Part shown: positions 55,579 through 64,000 of the stretch, piece after piece
Layout of the letters: the number at the start of each line of letters is the position of its first letter
Position numbering within the stretch: position 1 is the stretch's first letter
Source: Bacteroidota bacterium
Lineage (GTDB): Bacteria; Bacteroidota; Bacteroidia; UKL13-3
DNA: 64,000 bases
Direction of reading: 5' to 3'
Assembly: GCA_027488905.1 (NCBI GenBank)
Contig: JAIYAT010000007.1
Span: 310,001 to 374,000 of the forward strand
Program-made: the position numbers and the translations under genes
The notes under the pieces: model-generated
The model's database searches: none
What the model was told of the DNA's origin: nothing
The model's input: the letters and a program-made list of their open reading frames with translations, nothing else

Positions 55579-58380
55579 TTAGGCTTGGTTTGAACCCACA
55601 AAATACATGTCTATTTCTCCCTTGCCTTTTGCAGAAACCTTACCTCTATGGATACACATAAATTTATCTTTTATCAATTCATAGGTACTTTGGCTTATGT
55701 TTACCTTACCTACTTCTCCTGAAGATTCCATGCGTGAAGCGGTATTTACAGTGTCTCCCCAAATATCGTAGGCAAACTTTTTTATACCCACAATTCCTGC
55801 CACCACTGGGCCTGTATGCACACCTATCCTAATTTCGAAATAAGGCAATTGTTCAGCAATTTTTTTTGCCTTTCCCTCTTGCATAAATTGACAAATTTCA
55901 AGAGCTGCCTTTACTACGTCCTCTGCATGGGTTTGGTTTGGAATTGGCAAACCACCAGCGGCCATGTATGCATCTCCAATGGTTTTAATTTTTTCAATAC
56001 CATGTTTATGCATAATATGGTCAAATGCAGAGAAACACTCGTTTAAATCACGCACCAATTCTTTCGGACTGAGTGTTTCAGACAAGGCAGTAAATCCTTT
56101 AAAATCTGTAAACAAAACGGTAACTTCCTCAATTAATTTGGCTTCTGCAGCCCCTGTAGATTTTAATTCTTCCGCAACTTCAGCTGGTAAAATATTGAGT
56201 AATAACTCATCACTTCGCTTTTTCTCTTTAGCAGTTCTTCTTAATCCCATAAAAATGGAACCTGCTAGTAAAAGCATTAAAATAGTGCCACCTATAAATA
56301 AATTTCTTTGTGCATTTTTAGTTTCTATTTCTTGTTTTTGTGTTTCAACTAAGGCTTGTTGTAATTCCTTTTCTTGACCCAATACTGTCAATTGGGTAGC
56401 TTGCAGTTGCTTTTCCTTTTCAGATATAGTAAGTTGTTTTTCTTTATTTTGCTTTTCTGCTTTTTCTTTTAAATAAGCAAGATGTTGTAAGTCTTTTTCT
56501 TTATGGGTGAGTTCTAAATCCATTTGTTTTAATCCAAGTTCTTGTTGGCTTCTTGCGAACATTTCTTCACTTAGTTGCTTTTCAAATTTCAATTTAGTTT
56601 CATTTTTGTCAAAAGCATACAACATTTCTTTGCGTTCATTCTTACCCTTGATTGCATCTTTCTCAATGCTATCTCTTAGCATAATATAATTCTTATATGC
56701 TTCATAGGCTTTTGGAAAGTCGCCTTGCTTTTGATAAATCTCACTTAGGCTAGCATAGTTTTCTTTTTGACCCAATAACCTCCCAATTTCCTTGTTGATG
56801 GAAAGAGCTCTGCTGGAGTATTCTATAGCTTTTGTATAACGTTCAATAGGAACAATTCCCATAGCAGTTAGACCTGCCTCCGAGGCATTATAATACACCT
56901 TCCCAATATTACCAAGGTTAATGGCCATATTGGCTTTGTTTCCAAGTTGCTCAAAAATGCTTAGGGCTTTTTGATTATAGTCTAAAAATTTGGGATAATC
57001 AGAAAGTGCTTGATAAACATCCCCAATATTTCCAAGTGTTTCGGCAAAGGCATTTTTATCTCCAATTTGCTCATTGATGCTTTGTGCTTTCTGATAATAA
57101 TCTAACGCTTTGGGGTAATTTGCCAAGTAATAATACTCAAGACCAATGTTGTGCAAAAAATTTGAAATGCTTGTTTTATTCCCTATTTGCTCATTTATGC
57201 TAAGTGCCCTTTGATAGTTTTCAATTGCTTTTTCATGTTCAAAAAGATTAGAATTAACCAATCCAATACCGCCATAAGCAAACGCCATTCCTACCTTATT
57301 TCCAATCTGTTCATGTATATTTAGTGCTTTTTGGAAGTTTTCAAATGCTTTTGGATAATCAGAATAACTCAAATATATATTTCCCAAATTCCCATGAATA
57401 GTGGCAATAGTTCCTTTGTTTTCTAATTGTTCATGAATTAATAAGGCTTTTTGAAAATTCACTAATGCATTTGGGTAGTCCAAATTATTGTAAGAAATCA
57501 TAGCTATGTTTACCAATAAATTTGCAGCCTCACTTTTATTGCCTATCTGTTCATAAATACTCAAGGCTCCTAAGTACTTTTCCTGTGCTTTGGTATAATC
57601 TGAAAGCGCAGCATGAACCGATCCAATGCTGTTTAGATTTGAAGCCATTCCAATTTTATAGCCTAAACTTTCATTTATTTTTAAAGCATTTTGTAGGTTT
57701 TCAAATGATTTAGGAAATTCGGAAAGGCATTTATATGCTTGCCCAATACCTGATAGATTATTTGCAATGTTGCTTTGATTCCTTAATTGCTCTTGTGTGC
57801 GTAGTGCTTTTTGATAATATTCTAAAGCTTTTAAACAATTAGAATTTTTGAGGTGGTAATTTCCAATACTTTCATTCGAAAGGGCAATACCCATTTTGTT
57901 ATTCAATGTCTCAAATTGTTGTAAAGCATTTTCAAAAAGATCCAGGCCCTTTTTTCCTGCTCCTTCTCGTAAATAAATATTTCCAATATTTAAATTGTTT
58001 AATGCCGCTCCAAATTTATTTTTCTGTTTTTGATTAAGGATAAGTGCTTTATTAAAACAATCCAATCCAAGAGAATATTCATTCTTAGCTGTATGATTTA
58101 ATCCTTTGTTATGGAATGCCTCTGCTAATAAAATTGGATTGTTGAGGTTTTGTGCCAAGCTAATGGCCAATGTGCTGCTTTCAATACCTTTGTTAGGGTT
58201 TATTTTAGCATAGCAAAAAGCTAGTGCATTAAGTGTTTTTAACTTTGAACCATCTTGTTTTGTTTGGCGCTCGCTGACTTTTATTAAACTATCAAGTGAT
58301 AATTCTTTAAGGTTTGTTTGCGCCGTTATGGTTCCAATAAGGAGAAATAAACTACTTAAATACAAAAAGAATTGTTTCAT
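55579..58380 (-). CDS. TPR-repeat membrane-anchored adenylate cyclase (class III)
   Basis: This 933-residue protein has a signal peptide (1-20). A long array of tetratricopeptide repeats at about 55-560 is built on the pattern NIGNIY...YPKALENFQKAL-I-EQIGNK. A coiled coil (about 600-690), one membrane segment (about 690-712, FIGGTILMLLLAGSIFMGL) and a cytosolic cyclase domain follow. VTVLFTDFKGFTALSE contains metal Asp 1. IEKIKTIGDAYMAAGG has a Lys in the adenine-specifying position and metal Asp 2. YDIWGDTVNTASRME carries the transition-state Asn and Arg. It should make cAMP from ATP and sense a protein or peptide in the periplasm. A GGTTTGAACC word lies over the last codons. Confidence 0.9.
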   Translation of the reverse strand: MKQFFLYLSSLFLLIGTITAQTNLKELSLDSLIKVSERQTKQDGSKLKTLNALAFCYAKINPNKGIESSTLAISLAQNLNNPILLAEAFHNKGLNHTAKNEYSLGLDCFNKALILNQKQKNKFGAALNNLNIGNIYLREGAGKKGLDLFENALQQFETLNNKMGIALSNESIGNYHLKNSNCLKALEYYQKALRTQEQLRNQSNIANNLSGIGQAYKCLSEFPKSFENLQNALKINESLGYKIGMASNLNSIGSVHAALSDYTKAQEKYLGALSIYEQIGNKSEAANLLVNIAMISYNNLDYPNALVNFQKALLIHEQLENKGTIATIHGNLGNIYLSYSDYPKAFENFQKALNIHEQIGNKVGMAFAYGGIGLVNSNLFEHEKAIENYQRALSINEQIGNKTSISNFLHNIGLEYYYLANYPKALDYYQKAQSINEQIGDKNAFAETLGNIGDVYQALSDYPKFLDYNQKALSIFEQLGNKANMAINLGNIGKVYYNASEAGLTAMGIVPIERYTKAIEYSSRALSINKEIGRLLGQKENYASLSEIYQKQGDFPKAYEAYKNYIMLRDSIEKDAIKGKNERKEMLYAFDKNETKLKFEKQLSEEMFARSQQELGLKQMDLELTHKEKDLQHLAYLKEKAEKQNKEKQLTISEKEKQLQATQLTVLGQEKELQQALVETQKQEIETKNAQRNLFIGGTILMLLLAGSIFMGLRRTAKEKKRSDELLLNILPAEVAEELKSTGAAEAKLIEEVTVLFTDFKGFTALSETLSPKELVRDLNECFSAFDHIMHKHGIEKIKTIGDAYMAAGGLPIPNQTHAEDVVKAALEICQFMQEGKAKKIAEQLPYFEIRIGVHTGPVVAGIVGIKKFAYDIWGDTVNTASRMESSGEVGKVNISQSTYELIKDKFMCIHRGKVSAKGKGEIDMYFVGSNQA

Positions 58381-58505: not shown

Positions 58506-58754
58506 ATGAAACTGAATAAAAATATCGCTGTAAGTGATAATGGGTTTATATTTAACCCACTAAGTGGTGATTCTTTTAGCACCAATCCAATTGGACAAGA
58601 AGTTATTCGTTTGATGAAGGAACAAAAAACGAAAGAAGAAATCGTTAAAACTTTGGCTCAAAAATACAACTCTGAAGAGGCTAATATTGAAAAGGATTTG
58701 GTTGATTTTTTTCAAATGCTATTATCATATCAATTGATTTCTGAGCATGAATAA
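58506..58754 (+). CDS. PqqD-like peptide-chaperone protein
   Basis: This 82-residue protein has the PqqD/RRE fold pattern: short strands MKLNKNIAVSDNGFIFNPLSGDSFSTNPIG, then helices EVIRLMKEQKTKEEIVKTLAQKYNSEEANIEKDLVDFFQMLLSYQLI. Proteins of this family bind leader peptides of RiPPs and present them to modifying enzymes. It overlaps the ATP-grasp gene by 8 bases. No precursor peptide or radical SAM gene was found beside it; the 125 bases upstream encode no peptide starting with ATG of useful length. Confidence 0.82.
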   Translation: MKLNKNIAVSDNGFIFNPLSGDSFSTNPIGQEVIRLMKEQKTKEEIVKTLAQKYNSEEANIEKDLVDFFQMLLSYQLISEHE

Positions 58755-59796
58755 AAGAAAAATTACCGTTGCAGTTTCTGGCCTAAACAATATTGATAGT
58801 CCAGGTCCAGGAATTCCTGTTATAAGAGGACTTAAAGAAAGCTCCAAATTTGAAGTTAGAATAATTGGTTTGTCCTATGAGAATCTTGAGCCAGGTTTAT
58901 ACTTGCATGAATTAGTAGATAAATCCTATTCTATTCCCTTGCCATCATCTGGCATGGATAGTTTGTTACAAAGACTTGCCTATATCAATAGCATTGAGAA
59001 TTTAGATGTTATCATCCCAAATTTTGATGCTGAATTGCACAGCTTTATAAAATTAGGTCCGATTTTAAAACGCGATTATGGTATCTCGAGTTTTATGCCT
59101 GATTTAGAAACCTTTGAGAGCCGCCATAAATCTGTATTGTTCGAGTTTGGCGAAAAGAACGAAGTAAAAGTGCCTAAAAGCAAAATGATTTTCAGTCCAA
59201 ATGAAATTTTAGCCGTAGGAAATAGCTTTGGTTTTCCGTTAGTTGTTAAAGGAAAATACTACGATGCCAGCATTGCAGCAACCCCCGAACAAGCTATCAA
59301 TTATTTTCATAAGATTTCAGCCAAATGGGGTTTACCTATTATTCTTCAAGAATTTGTTAGTGGTAATGAAGTAAATGTTACCGCAATTGGAGATGGAAAT
59401 GGTAACTGTATTGGCGCAGTTCCAATGCGAAAACTTTACATTACAGATAAAGGCAAAGCTTGGGCTGGAATTTCTTTATTAGATGATGAATTAATTGAAA
59501 TCACCAATAGGGTAATTGGAAATTCTAAGTGGCGTGGTGGTTGCGAACTAGAATTTATAAAAACCAACTCAGGAGAATATTATTTATTAGAAATGAACCC
59601 ACGGTTTCCTGCTTGGGTGTATTTGGCTGTAGGTTGTGGTCAAAATCACCCAGAGGCATTGGTAGCAATGGCTTTAGGTGAAGAAGTAAAGCCTTTTGAA
59701 TCTTATCAGAATGGAAAATTGTTTGTGCGCTATAGCTTCGACCAAATTGTCGATTTAGCAGAATTTGAAAAAATATCAACTTTAGGAGAATTATAA
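58747..59796 (+). CDS. ATP-grasp ligase (carbamoyl-phosphate-synthase-like subgroup)
   Basis: This 349-residue protein has a preATP-grasp domain, starting ITVAVSGLNNIDSPGPGIPVIRGLK. The ATP-grasp core follows: VPKSKMIFSPNEI, PLVVKGKYYDASIAATPEQA, IILQEFVSGNEVNVTAIGDG and the metal-binding YYLLEMNPRFPAWVYLAVGCG. The layout is like PylC and peptide ligases of the same superfamily, which join carboxylates to amines. The substrate is unknown. It lies between the PqqD-like protein and the PLP decarboxylase, so it may condense an amino acid onto a carrier or peptide. Confidence 0.85.
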   Translation: MNKRKITVAVSGLNNIDSPGPGIPVIRGLKESSKFEVRIIGLSYENLEPGLYLHELVDKSYSIPLPSSGMDSLLQRLAYINSIENLDVIIPNFDAELHSFIKLGPILKRDYGISSFMPDLETFESRHKSVLFEFGEKNEVKVPKSKMIFSPNEILAVGNSFGFPLVVKGKYYDASIAATPEQAINYFHKISAKWGLPIILQEFVSGNEVNVTAIGDGNGNCIGAVPMRKLYITDKGKAWAGISLLDDELIEITNRVIGNSKWRGGCELEFIKTNSGEYYLLEMNPRFPAWVYLAVGCGQNHPEALVAMALGEEVKPFESYQNGKLFVRYSFDQIVDLAEFEKISTLGEL

Positions 59797-59797
59797 A

Positions 59798-61156
59798 ATG
59801 ACCAAGTTAACATACGAAAGACCTGTTATTCAGAAATTGAATACCGGCACAATGAATAAGTTTGGTTCTAGAACCGAATACACACCTGTAACTCATATTG
59901 AAGGAGTTTCTGTCAAGTCTTTAATGGCCGACTATGGTTCTCCTTTGTTTGTCATTAGCGAGCCTCAGATCAGAAGAAATTACCAAAGTGCGGTAAGGGC
60001 TTTCAAAACGCGATACCCAAAAGTTCAATTTGCATGGAGTTATAAAACCAATTATCTCAATGCAGTTTGTAATGTATTTCATCAAGAAGGTGCCTGGGCA
60101 GAAGTTGTTTCTATTTTTGAATACCAAAAGGCAATCAAAAATGGGGTACCAGGGAATAAAATCATTTTTAATGGTCCAGATAAATCTGCTGATGATTTAA
60201 GAACTGCAATCAACAATCATTCTTTAATTCATATCGACCATTTTGATGAATTATACATGTTGATAGAAATTGCCCAAGAGTTAAAAACAAAAGCTACCGT
60301 TGCCATTAGGGTAAACATGGATACTGGCATTTATCCAATTTGGGATAGGTTTGGTTTTAATTATGAAAACGGACAAGCCTGGAATGCCATCAATAAAATC
60401 ATGAGCGCCCCAGAGTTAGAACTTCATGGATTGCATTGTCATATTGGAACTTTTATGTTAAGTGCAGGTGCATATGCCACAGCTGCTTGGAAACTATGTG
60501 ACCTAGCTTGGAATGTCAAACTTAAATGGAATCACATGATTCAGTATTTAGATTTGGGTGGTGGCTTTGCATCAGCAAATACGCTGAAAGGAAGTTACCT
60601 GCAAGGCTCAGATATTATCCCAAGTACCGAAGATTATGCAGATGCAATCGCAACAACCATTCTTAACTTTGGGTTCAAACCAGATGAATTGCCAATGTTG
60701 TTTTTAGAAACAGGAAGATCGCTTATTGACGATGCTGGTTATTTATTGGGGTCTGTGCTTGCAACTAAGCGACTTAGCGATGGAAGAAGAGCCACCATCA
60801 TGGATTTTGGCGTAAATTTATTGTTTACTGCGTTTTGGTATAATCATAAGATTTCACCAGCCCAAGAGTTTTCTCATCACACAGAAGATATGGTGTTATA
60901 TGGTCCATTATGCATGAACATCGATTGTATAAGAGAAAGCATCAATTTACCATTATTGTCAAAAGGAGATCAAGTGGTGGTGCATAGGGTAGGAGCTTAT
61001 AATATGACCCAATGGATGCAGTTTATTCAAATGAGACCAAATGTTGTTATGGTTGATGCTAAGCAAAATGTACATTTGATTAGAACCAAAGAATCTATTG
61101 ATACCATGTTGAGATATGAGCTTGTTCCAGAACATTTAGAGCAGTTTAAATTGTAA
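59798..61156 (+). CDS. Fold-III PLP decarboxylase (DAP/ornithine decarboxylase-like) with leader-like N-terminus
   Basis: This 452-residue protein has PLP lysine Lys83 in FAWSYKTNYL. LHGLHCHIGTFML, DLGGGFASAN, and FLETGRSLIDDAG (the EPGR box read as ETGR) follow, and YGPLCMNIDCI carries the conserved active-site Cys. This resembles diaminopimelate decarboxylase. Residues 1-22 have no counterpart in LysA: TYERPVIQKLNTG has the spacing of Y-x-x-P-x-L/I in lasso-peptide leaders. It begins one base after the ATP-grasp stop and is followed by the transporter fusion after 3 bases. Decarboxylation of a basic or diacidic amino acid, possibly ligated, is the inferred reaction. Confidence 0.85.
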   Translation: MTKLTYERPVIQKLNTGTMNKFGSRTEYTPVTHIEGVSVKSLMADYGSPLFVISEPQIRRNYQSAVRAFKTRYPKVQFAWSYKTNYLNAVCNVFHQEGAWAEVVSIFEYQKAIKNGVPGNKIIFNGPDKSADDLRTAINNHSLIHIDHFDELYMLIEIAQELKTKATVAIRVNMDTGIYPIWDRFGFNYENGQAWNAINKIMSAPELELHGLHCHIGTFMLSAGAYATAAWKLCDLAWNVKLKWNHMIQYLDLGGGFASANTLKGSYLQGSDIIPSTEDYADAIATTILNFGFKPDELPMLFLETGRSLIDDAGYLLGSVLATKRLSDGRRATIMDFGVNLLFTAFWYNHKISPAQEFSHHTEDMVLYGPLCMNIDCIRESINLPLLSKGDQVVVHRVGAYNMTQWMQFIQMRPNVVMVDAKQNVHLIRTKESIDTMLRYELVPEHLEQFKL

Positions 61157-61159
61157 AAT

Positions 61160-63298
61160 TTGAAGATTCCCCAACGTTTTAGTTTCTGGATAAATAGTGT
61201 ATTGAATAGCTATGCACAAGTGTTCTTTAGCCTTAATAAAGTTTTGGCCATAACCTTGTTTGCAGTAACTTTTATCAATCCAAGTGTTGGTGTATTTGGA
61301 TTGCTAAGTGTCTTGGGCAGCAATGTGATGGCCTATGTTTTAGGCTTTGATAAAAAGCAAGTTGAAAAAGGGATTTATGGTTTTAATGCATTATTACTTG
61401 GCTTGGCATTGGGTTATTTATATGCCTTTTCACTTGCCTTTCTGTTATTATTCATCATTTCCATTTTTGCCGTTTTTTTTATCACAGCAGCTTTACAGGC
61501 CTCTATGGGTAAAATAAATTTACCATTTTTAAGTCTGCCATTTTTGTTTTGCTATTGGATGATTGCATTGGCTTCGCCTCAATTAAGTGCCTTAAGTTTC
61601 AAGATTATACAAACTTCACAAGTTGAGTTTAGCTACCTTGAATTTCCAGCTTTTTGGAAAGTGTTTTTTAATACGCTATCTGCTACCTTTTTCAATAAAT
61701 CTGTTTGGGGTGGTTTATTAATTGCCATTGCATTGTTTCTTTCTTCACGAATTGCTTTTAGCTTAGCCTTATTAGCCTACCTTTCTGCGTATGGTGCTTA
61801 TCAAGTTTTTGGCGTTGATGTAGCAGCATTAACAGATAACTTGGTTGGTTCAAACTTTATCTTTTTTGGAATTGCCATTGGCTGCTTTTACCTTATTCCA
61901 AATGTGTATTCTTATTTAACAGTGATTGTTTTTACACCAATTTTAATGCTGTTATTGGTCGGTTTGAACCAAGCGTTTGCTGTGTTTCATTTAAATGGGT
62001 TTACACTTGCATTTACATTGTTAACGATGTTGGTTTTGTATGCCTTGCACCACAGGTGGATTCCTCGCTTTTTATACTTGGTGCAAATCCAGTATTATTC
62101 TGCAGAAACTACAATTTATAAATATCTAAGCGCAGTAAAAAGGTTAAAGTATGCGCATCACAATCAATTTTCGCTTCCCTTTTTTGGAAGCTGGAAGGTA
62201 AGTCAAGGTTACGAAGGTAAGTTAACTCACTTGGGCGAATGGAGTAATGCCTTAGATTTTGTAATTAGCGATGAGCAAAACAAAACGTATCAGCTAAGTG
62301 GATTAAAAATGAGTGATTATTATTGCTACAATAAACCTGTTTTAGCTCCTGCAGATGGACTTGTGATTCAGATAGTTAATCACATAGACGATAATGAGGT
62401 TGGTGAGGTGGATACCAAACAAAATTGGGGAAATACCATTATTCTTAAACATGCCGAAGGTTTATTTTCTCAAATAAGTCATCTGAAAAAAGATTCTTTT
62501 AAGGTTAATGAAGGCGCATGGGTGAGTAAAGGAACTGTTATAGCAAGTTGTGGTGCAAGTGGAAGGTCTCCAGAGCCACATATTCATTTTCAAATTCAAC
62601 AATCTCCTTTGATTGGTTCAAAAACTTTGACTTACCCCATTGCTTATTTTATGAGTCAAGATGCTGCTGGATTGCAGTTAAATTACTTTGAGGTACCAAA
62701 AGAAGATGCGCACATTTTTAATGTAGAAACCCAATCTTCTTTAAAGCAAGCTTTCGATTGGCAACCTGGCAAAAAATTAGTTTGGTTCAACCAAAAACAC
62801 CCTTCTAAATTAACCAGTTTTGAAGTGTTTACAGACGCCTATAATAGAACTTATATTTTTTGCGCTTCAACAGGTTCTTACGCCTATTTCATTAATGATG
62901 GCACTCGCTTTTACTTTACCGATTTTGAAGGGGATAAGAAGGGTTTTCTTTTTCAATTGTATCTATCGTGTTTTTCAGTATTATTAGCACATTATCCAGC
63001 ACTCAAAATGAAAGATAACATCCCACAAATCCATTTTCAAGTGCCAATATTGCATTGGGTTCAAGATGTAGTTGCGCCATTTTATGTTTTTAATAAGGTG
63101 GTTTTCGAAGGTGAAAGTTGTTTAACTGAAACTTCTGCAATGCAGACTAATTATTTGCTTTCAAGTGAAATTGTAACGCGTTTTATGGGATTAAAAGTAG
63201 CAGCTCAAAGTTACAAAGTAGCTATTGGAAAGAAAGGCTTAGAAAAAATAGAATTTCAACAAAATGGTTTTAATGAAGAGTGGCTATGCATAAACTGA
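61160..63298 (+). CDS. Urea-transporter-like membrane domain fused to M23 peptidase
   Basis: This 712-residue protein is read from a TTG codon at 61160, since no in-frame ATG precedes the family's usual N-terminus (INSVLNSYAQVFFSLNKVLAI). Residues about 15-310 form the hydrophobic repeats of the UT/AmtS-like urea transporter (ALLLGLALGYLY; LPFLFCYWMI). Residues 350-510 form an M23 endopeptidase: His357 and Asp366 (THLGEWSNALD), GLFSQISHLKKDS and His474/His476 (EPHIHFQ), all zinc and catalytic positions. Another 200 residues follow without a known domain. This fusion is known in Bacteroidota but its role is not described. M23 would cut peptidoglycan or a peptide near the channel. Confidence 0.82.
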   Translation: MKIPQRFSFWINSVLNSYAQVFFSLNKVLAITLFAVTFINPSVGVFGLLSVLGSNVMAYVLGFDKKQVEKGIYGFNALLLGLALGYLYAFSLAFLLLFIISIFAVFFITAALQASMGKINLPFLSLPFLFCYWMIALASPQLSALSFKIIQTSQVEFSYLEFPAFWKVFFNTLSATFFNKSVWGGLLIAIALFLSSRIAFSLALLAYLSAYGAYQVFGVDVAALTDNLVGSNFIFFGIAIGCFYLIPNVYSYLTVIVFTPILMLLLVGLNQAFAVFHLNGFTLAFTLLTMLVLYALHHRWIPRFLYLVQIQYYSAETTIYKYLSAVKRLKYAHHNQFSLPFFGSWKVSQGYEGKLTHLGEWSNALDFVISDEQNKTYQLSGLKMSDYYCYNKPVLAPADGLVIQIVNHIDDNEVGEVDTKQNWGNTIILKHAEGLFSQISHLKKDSFKVNEGAWVSKGTVIASCGASGRSPEPHIHFQIQQSPLIGSKTLTYPIAYFMSQDAAGLQLNYFEVPKEDAHIFNVETQSSLKQAFDWQPGKKLVWFNQKHPSKLTSFEVFTDAYNRTYIFCASTGSYAYFINDGTRFYFTDFEGDKKGFLFQLYLSCFSVLLAHYPALKMKDNIPQIHFQVPILHWVQDVVAPFYVFNKVVFEGESCLTETSAMQTNYLLSSEIVTRFMGLKVAAQSYKVAIGKKGLEKIEFQQNGFNEEWLCIN

Positions 63299-64000
63299 TA
63301 GTAGGTTTTTTATTGTTTTTTTCTTTCGTTTCAAAGGCTCAAACGCCTACTGAAAGCTATATTGATAGTCTAAGTTATGCCTATTTTAATCAATATGACT
63401 ATTCCGAGTTAAAACAACTTGGTAAAGAAAGTTTAAAGCAAGGAATAGATTTCTTTTACCTCAGAACGCGATTGGGAATTGTTGCTTTTAGAGAGGCAAA
63501 CTATGAAGCAGCTTGGCATCATTTTGAGAAAGCCGAAAAAATGCAAGCTGGCGATGTTGTGGTTTTAGAATACCTATATTGGAGTTATGTATATACTGGA
63601 CAAAATGATAAGGCAAACGCCTTATTTGAAAAATATCAAAGTTTGGTTCAAACAATTCTCCCTGGAATTGCCAATAAACAACAAAGTGAAATTGAGATTG
63701 GCACACTGCAAACCCAAAACCAAAAGAATTACTTTGATCAGGTATTAAGAAAAACAGGTGATGCTTATGCAGGTGGGAGTTTCTTTTCTTCTATGCATTA
63801 CTTGAGGTTGTACCATGAACAAAGGTTTAAACATAATTGGAGGTTCTTTGCCGGTGCTGGTATGTATCAGGTTCAAAGCTTTTCAAATGTTTGGACCGAA
63901 AACCAATTTCCACCGCCCGATAGCTTTTCCATAAAACAAAGTGATCCAAATGTTCAACTTAATTTTGGACTGTCAAAATTGTTTTCTAATGGCATTCGTG
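63286..64000 (+). CDS. Outer-membrane beta-barrel protein with TPR-like N-terminus (3' end outside window)
   Basis: The frame is open from ATG 63286 to the last base (238 codons visible), overlapping the previous gene by 13 bases. The signal peptide is MHKLIVGFLLFFSFVSKAQ. Residues 25-115 look like two to three TPR-type helix pairs (YDYSELKQLGKESLKQG; FREANYEAAWHHFEKAEKM). From about 150, alternating aromatic strands begin (GGSFFSSMHYLRLYHEQRF; WRFFAGAGMYQVQSFSNV), typical of a barrel. It is the fifth gene of the operon and probably the outer-membrane partner of the transporter-peptidase. I cannot name the family. Confidence 0.75.
   Translation, partial: MHKLIVGFLLFFSFVSKAQTPTESYIDSLSYAYFNQYDYSELKQLGKESLKQGIDFFYLRTRLGIVAFREANYEAAWHHFEKAEKMQAGDVVVLEYLYWSYVYTGQNDKANALFEKYQSLVQTILPGIANKQQSEIEIGTLQTQNQKNYFDQVLRKTGDAYAGGSFFSSMHYLRLYHEQRFKHNWRFFAGAGMYQVQSFSNVWTENQFPPPDSFSIKQSDPNVQLNFGLSKLFSNGIR

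Follow-up and report, generated by a model that had tools for sequence, protein, structure and literature searches.

At the end of the window, by which we mean the whole 64,000-nucleotide stretch of Bacteroidota DNA analysed here (GCA_027488905.1, contig JAIYAT010000007.1), lies an operon whose six genes form a conserved unit across the phylum. The first four genes encode a PqqD-family protein, an ATP-grasp ligase, a fold-III PLP decarboxylase and a fusion of a urea-transporter (UT) fold with an M23 domain, and they are nearly always followed by the genes for a TPR protein and a barrel-type protein. We read the whole as a self-contained biosynthesis-and-transport operon, in which PqqD would dock on the decarboxylase, the ligase would make an amide conjugate, the PLP enzyme would decarboxylate it and the product would be exported, a reading to which we give a little less than an even chance. 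Its enzymes all belong to established families, and its proposed mechanism is a variation on RRE-guided biosynthesis. It is conserved and widespread, yet apparently unstudied; no paper on this gene combination was found in the open literature, where most subscription papers are missing.

Layout and conservation of the operon

The features of the operon, in coordinates of the window, are the following:

58506 to 58754, + strand: PqqD-family protein (discrete RRE type), 82 aa, from the ORF and Pfam
58747 to 59796, + strand: ATP-grasp ligase, 349 aa, with an 8-base overlap with the PqqD gene
59798 to 61156, + strand: fold-III PLP decarboxylase, 452 aa, 1 base after the ATP-grasp gene
59798 to 59866, + strand: leader-like N-terminal tail of the decarboxylase, residues 1–23 (MTKLTYERPVIQKLNTGTMNKFG)
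61160 to 63298, + strand: UT-M23 fusion (urea-transporter/M23), 712 aa, 3 bases after the PLP gene
61160 to 62140, + strand: UT-fold channel, fusion residues 1–327 (Pfam; Z 35.6 to 3k3f)
62156 to 62605, + strand: M23/LytM-fold domain, fusion residues about 333–482 (Pfam; Z 14.4 to 7qrl)
62606 to 63298, + strand: beta-rich C-terminal domain of the fusion, about 230 aa, without a Pfam or PDB sequence relative
63280 to 64000 in the window, running on to the equivalent of 64599, + strand: exported protein of TPR plus outer-membrane-barrel type
Equivalent of 64602 to 65207 (L004:14602-15207), + strand: sixth gene, periplasmic TPR protein, 201 aa

The ORF calls confirmed the five genes that had been proposed from the sequence alone, with junctions of -8, 1, 3 and -13 bases. 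The fifth gene starts either at 63280 (GTG) or at 63286 (ATG, which gives the 13-base overlap with the fusion gene) and leaves the window, its full product of 439 aa being read from sequence beyond it. A search downstream of 64000, suggested at that stage for a precursor and more enzymes, yielded the sixth gene for the 201-aa TPR protein and no conserved precursor ORF.

With regard to family membership (Pfam), the PqqD protein reached 49.4 bits to PF05402 (cut-off 23.4), of which it is the sole match in the window's genome, and the ATP-grasp protein reached 36.4 bits to ATPgrasp_Ter (cut-off 29.1), with an E-x-N-x-R motif (282–286) and K168 invariant in 19 orthologs. The PLP enzyme matched Orn_Arg_deC_N with 102.5 bits as well as Orn_DAP_Arg_deC, and its conserved residues are K83, H215, GGG 254–256, C372 and D376. 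The fusion matched both UT (PF03253; 160.7 bits, cut-off 25) and Peptidase_M23 (58.4 bits, cut-off 28.7).

Scanning GTDB contigs gave 587 or more matching stretches, of which the top 80 were fetched. All 75 homologous loci whose flanks were long enough had the genes for PqqD, the ATP-grasp ligase, the PLP enzyme and the fusion together, usually in this order, and the grouping of these genes is therefore not due to chance; the TPR gene was additionally found in 72 and a recognisable barrel-type gene in 63 of these loci. Neighbours beyond the six genes varied by clade, which indicates that the co-occurrence is not mere synteny. Furthermore, when 395 genomes were sampled from across the phylum, the PLP ortholog and the fusion occurred in an identical set of 34 genomes and were adjacent in every one. 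Neither the locus counts nor the genome counts take account of relatedness. Both results support the sequence-only reading, according to which these genes act together, and the near-perfect co-occurrence is the opposite of the rare association that it had named as contrary evidence. The distribution of the fusion is patchy (60 relatives); in the checked genomes with a full-length fusion, the adjoining PLP enzyme was 66–99% identical, while the canonical lysA-like paralogs of these genomes were only 24–28% identical. In distant members, the TPR gene lies upstream of a shorter exported protein of about 275–300 aa.

The apparent absence of PqqD from some loci was an ORF-calling artefact, as a six-frame search detected PqqD in every interior locus. 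A defence system was also rejected, the sole match being a partial one of PqqD to PbeC (15.7 bits), and the search for plasmid carriage gave no match at E 1e-60. In three loci (L131 of genome G064, L084 and L121), the UT and M23 parts were read as two ORFs, which in L131 comprise 358 and 393 aa with a stop read within the UT match; assembly or frame errors are possible, and the halves may function as separate chains. Loci L105, L114 and L118 show that culturable Pedobacter carry the operon. Records titled Candidatus Kuenenia stuttgartiensis (L049) and Bifidobacterium breve (L109) carried the operon at 75% identity and are probably mislabelled metagenome bins.

Among 120 upstream neighbours scanned, LytTR domains (21), LytS-type kinase domains (13), GNAT proteins (11), AraC-type helix-turn-helix proteins (9) and Metal_resist/LTXXQ proteins (3) were found, so that in several clades the operon seems to be controlled by regulators that respond to the envelope or to metals. 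None of these types lies directly upstream of the window's copy. There, a divergent gene (55579–58380, - strand) encodes a protein in which TPR repeats are joined to a catalytic domain of the adenylate/guanylate cyclase type (201 bits), present at that place only in this genome and its nearest relative (L026). A scan for sigma-70-type promoters did not rise above shuffles, the sigma-70 model not being apt for Bacteroidota. Some upstream regulators (L036:5821-6426, L098:3468-4088 and others) combine an AraC-type helix-turn-helix with an N-terminal region that weakly resembles heavy-metal-associated domains. Just upstream in L041 (14458-14997, - strand) and L042 (14496-14999, - strand) are genes for a CnrX/Spy/CpxP-like periplasmic protein (Metal_resist and LTXXQ in L041) and for a short anti-sigma-factor-like protein. 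In a distant clade (L132, L136, L138 and L140), a secreted protein of about 280–290 aa, with a mature start like QWNSEWNSS...SGWISF, is encoded closely upstream of PqqD and may be a seventh component there. Directly downstream of the TPR gene, an AHSA1/SRPBCC-domain gene (L004:15214-15630) is present in six loci, all of the clade to which the window belongs.

The decarboxylase, its proposed substrate class and its N-terminal tail

The window's genome encodes three fold-III decarboxylases: the operon enzyme, a separate lysA product (401.6 bits to TIGR01048, cut-off 297.9) and an arginine-decarboxylase-like protein (153.9 bits to speA, below its cut-off). That the ligase and decarboxylase might be ordinary lysine biosynthesis genes, in a genome with no other lysA, had been put forward as a possible refutation. 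The operon enzyme does reach 222.2 bits to TIGR01048, but this remains below the cut-off, and where LysA usually has the Glu of its CESxD motif, the operon enzyme has Met. With a separate, canonical lysA present in the genome, the pair is not one for lysine biosynthesis, an explanation to which we attach almost no probability.

The nearest NCBIfam and PDB sequence match of the operon enzyme was FigC/FslC, an N-citrylornithine decarboxylase (235.7 bits to the FslC model NF041039, cut-off 500), with which it shares a GPxCMxxD motif. When its structural model was compared with known structures, Methanocaldococcus DAPDC (Z 43.2) and FigC (7kh2; Z 42.8, rmsd 2.5, 396 aligned residues) were tied, and thus the fold alone cannot choose between them. 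FigC, SbnH, AcsE, MccE and BtrK belong to one clade that also holds DAPDC, and these five enzymes decarboxylate conjugated or carrier-bound amino acids (PMC7857480). The citryl group in FigC has been modelled as held by H357 and R387 (PMC7857480), which align with I375 and Q405 of the operon enzyme; given these replacements, the substrate would carry another group than citryl, and a citryl-amino-acid (siderophore) decarboxylase was rejected as a candidate. In contrast to FigC/FslC, the operon has no NIS synthetase, and FigC itself lacks the leader-like tail described below.

A second relative, BtrK (Z 39.9), is likewise a fold-III decarboxylase and acts on a tethered amino acid. In the butirosin system, which comprises the ligase BtrJ, the decarboxylase BtrK and the acyl carrier protein BtrI, this decarboxylase is paired with an ATP-grasp ligase. 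The operon differs in having PqqD and a tailed decarboxylase, whereas no carrier-protein family was detected when its proteins were searched with Pfam and NCBIfam. As the best match is FigC/FslC, and several members of its clade act on conjugated or carrier-bound amino acids, we propose a conjugate chemistry in two steps. The ATP-grasp ligase would form an amide or isopeptide at an amine or carboxylate in the side chain of an amino acid, after which the PLP enzyme would remove the alpha-carboxylate from the conjugate. By analogy with FigC, SbnH and BtrK, we consider the chances of this order of events to be evenly balanced. As to the product, a decarboxylated amine or amide conjugate is likeliest.

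Wherever the N-terminus of a PLP ortholog could be read, it carried a tail of about 23 residues of the type MxKxxYERPxIxKxNxGxMNKFG, and the strict pattern [YF]xxPx[ILVM]x5Gx3Kx[GA] was present in 106 of 109 orthologs. P9 and K21 were invariant (weighted), and Y6, E7, G17, N20 and G23 were conserved at 0.94 or more. The weighted mean entropy was 1.21 bits for tail residues 4–23, in comparison with 1.77 for the linker (24–37) and 1.19 for the remaining core, and synonymous differences dominated among tail codons between near relatives (e.g., 11 to 2). In the AlphaFold2 model (64 sequences), residues 1–24 had pLDDT values below 50 (block means 32 and 35), while the blocks beyond residue 30 were mostly above 90; the tail is thus predicted to be disordered. 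Structural alignments began at model residue 26 with FigC and at 30–31 with BtrK, and the genome's own LysA has no tail, its fold beginning directly at the N-terminus.

Regarding the motif itself, PqqD- and lasso-type RREs bind W/Y/LxxP/L/I sequences in the alpha3/beta3 groove, and YxxP is an established recognition sequence for them (PMC12710340). The lasso precursors treated in one study (PMC10368454) carry YxxPxL at -17 to -12 before core Gly1. The tail has the same 17 steps from Y6 to G23 as the lasso leader from its Tyr to Gly1, with P9 and I11 also in register. In motif and register, the tail resembles an RRE recognition sequence, with PqqD as its candidate binding partner. Two differences count against this: isoleucine mostly takes the place of the leucine, and the invariant Lys21 stands where lasso leaders usually have a conserved Thr(-2). 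We propose that PqqD would bind the tail and thereby join the decarboxylase and the ATP-grasp ligase, so that a separate precursor peptide would be unnecessary, and on balance we lean towards this proposal.

A different explanation gives the tail a structural role in the decarboxylase dimer, unrelated to PqqD, e.g., as an N-terminal arm lying across the active site of the other subunit, and has PqqD act on the ATP-grasp enzyme or another partner. The strong conservation of the tail, up to the fold, would fit this, and low pLDDT also affects segments 264–272, 340–347 and 403–407, which may lie at the dimer interface, so that the low values in the tail may instead mean a missing dimer partner. 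However, the tail is missing from FigC, BtrK and LysA, a more variable linker connects it to the fold, its motif is of the class bound by PqqD-type RREs and the gene for the genome's sole PqqD lies two positions upstream of the decarboxylase gene. We thus regard a dimer arm as rather unlikely, albeit deserving of some weight.

The proposed docking of PqqD on the tail bears directly on the precursor question. The sequence-only reading had seen no precursor gene, and this held for the fetched loci, where small-ORF clustering revealed no conserved precursor ORF in the 700 bp on either side of the operon or in the gaps between its genes. The clusters obtained were fragments of neighbouring LytTR, AraC, GNAT, TPR and AHSA1-type genes or were limited to few close relatives. 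In the 18 genomes that a tail profile matched, it gave a single strong match each, always in the decarboxylase gene and otherwise at noise level, and hence no stand-alone copy of the leader motif in these genomes. It is still conceivable that the operon is a RiPP pathway whose precursor lies elsewhere in the genome or is too short or variable to detect, since a discrete PqqD/RRE with an ATP-grasp enzyme is a RiPP-like set and many RREs are without an identified precursor (PMC12710340). Against the background of both searches, we find this improbable. The notion that PqqD presents a peptide was therefore retained in altered form: a recognition-type sequence does exist, but at the N-terminus of the decarboxylase, and so a separate precursor is probably not needed.

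The operon resembles lasso and PQQ RRE systems (B1/PqqD, YxxP leaders) in its discrete PqqD-type protein, its YxxPx[I/L] motif and its Tyr-to-Gly spacing. It differs from them in that the motif sits on an enzyme, with no separate precursor, and in the absence of a B2 protease, an asparagine-synthetase-like cyclase (both by Pfam) and a radical SAM enzyme. In agreement with the earlier suggestion, no standard RiPP class matches this gene set. The operon works like an RRE-guided pathway, yet it has no precursor of the RiPP kind and also falls outside the definitions of LysA, FigC and butirosin systems.

The UT-M23 fusion and the envelope proteins

The model of the fusion (pLDDT 87) showed a complete UT fold followed by an M23/LytM fold. 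The UT part aligned with dvUT (3k3f) over 309 residues (Z 35.6, rmsd 2.4), and the M23 part with DipM (7qrl; Z 14.4), while the score of the fusion to TIGR03441 was 97 bits, with a cut-off of 274.6. Four dvUT positions were compared, Q24, T130, E187 and T294, of which Q24 and E187 belong to the urea site; their spacing was checked on the printed sequence. The glutamine was kept in 18 of 19 orthologs, T130 was replaced by Ser in 17 of 19, E187 by A, S or Y in all 19, with no Glu in any, and the T294 position held S or T. Loss of the urea-binding glutamate makes urea unlikely as the native solute. The channel is therefore like dvUT and UT-B in its complete fold and its Q24, and unlike them in the E187 and T130 positions and in its fusion to an M23-fold and an orphan domain. 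This orphan C-terminal domain (62606–63298) was conserved in 28 aligned orthologs.

UT proteins have both termini in the cytoplasm, which places the M23-fold domain, located after the last UT helix, probably on the cytoplasmic side and away from peptidoglycan. The net charge of the fusion was +1.1 at the N-terminus, +3.2 in the C-terminal tail and -2.2 in the mid linker. Within the M23-fold domain, D366, H441, H474 and H476 were invariant. The His that normally stands four residues ahead of the Asp in the zinc motif (HxxxD plus HxH) is missing; H357, nine residues before D366 and also invariant, may substitute for it. The peptidase at the membrane that had been anticipated is doubtful, given the probable cytoplasmic side and the lack of HxxxD in its usual spacing. 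Tentatively, and with less than even confidence, we suggest that this probably cytoplasm-facing domain binds or trims the conjugate instead of peptidoglycan.

A signal peptide, helical repeats in the N-terminal region and a C-terminal part rich in strands mark the fifth protein, for which no Pfam family was above cut-off. An ortholog gave weak TPR and NfrA_C matches, and from these features together we read the protein as an outer-membrane barrel, although one that is poorly conserved. The sixth protein, with TPR repeats, likewise carries a signal peptide. The combination of an exported TPR domain, a barrel-type region at its C-terminal end and a separate periplasmic TPR protein recalls the PgaA, BcsC and NfrA exporters; the similarity is weak and, in contrast to these systems, the operon has no glycosyltransferase or synthase partner.

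Since a UT-type channel is passive, the direction of transport cannot be read from sequence. Outer-membrane barrels often import, and the operon could be one for uptake and catabolism, in which barrel, TPR protein and channel import a small amide that the enzymes process; both the passivity of UT channels and the commonness of import among such barrels are compatible with this. Nonetheless, a ligase that consumes ATP and has its catalytic residues is more in keeping with synthesis, the operon lacks a SusCD or TonB partner and the TPR-plus-barrel design is like that of exporters, and we judge uptake to be unlikely. For the export that we favour, the small product would cross the inner membrane via the UT-fold channel, with its lost urea-binding glutamate, and would reach the outside via the periplasmic TPR protein and the barrel, a route that we put forward as plausible, with confidence somewhat below even.

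A possible carrier version of the proposed mechanism and wider implications

In a more far-reaching version, which we consider quite improbable, the decarboxylase would be its own substrate carrier: PqqD would present the tail, the ATP-grasp enzyme would load an amino acid onto it, with the invariant Lys21 of NKFG as the obvious acceptor, the enzyme's own PLP domain would decarboxylate it and the product would be released, possibly by the M23-fold domain on the channel, directly into this dedicated channel. If true, this would amount to an RRE-guided assembly line, with a single polypeptide serving as leader, carrier and catalyst.

RRE domains are used in genome mining for peptide natural products. 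If PqqD-type proteins dock on recognition sequences borne by enzymes, a part of the orphan RREs would be enzyme-scaffolding adaptors. The operon would also add a new metabolite, a urea-channel fold put to another use and a protein domain without an assigned family.
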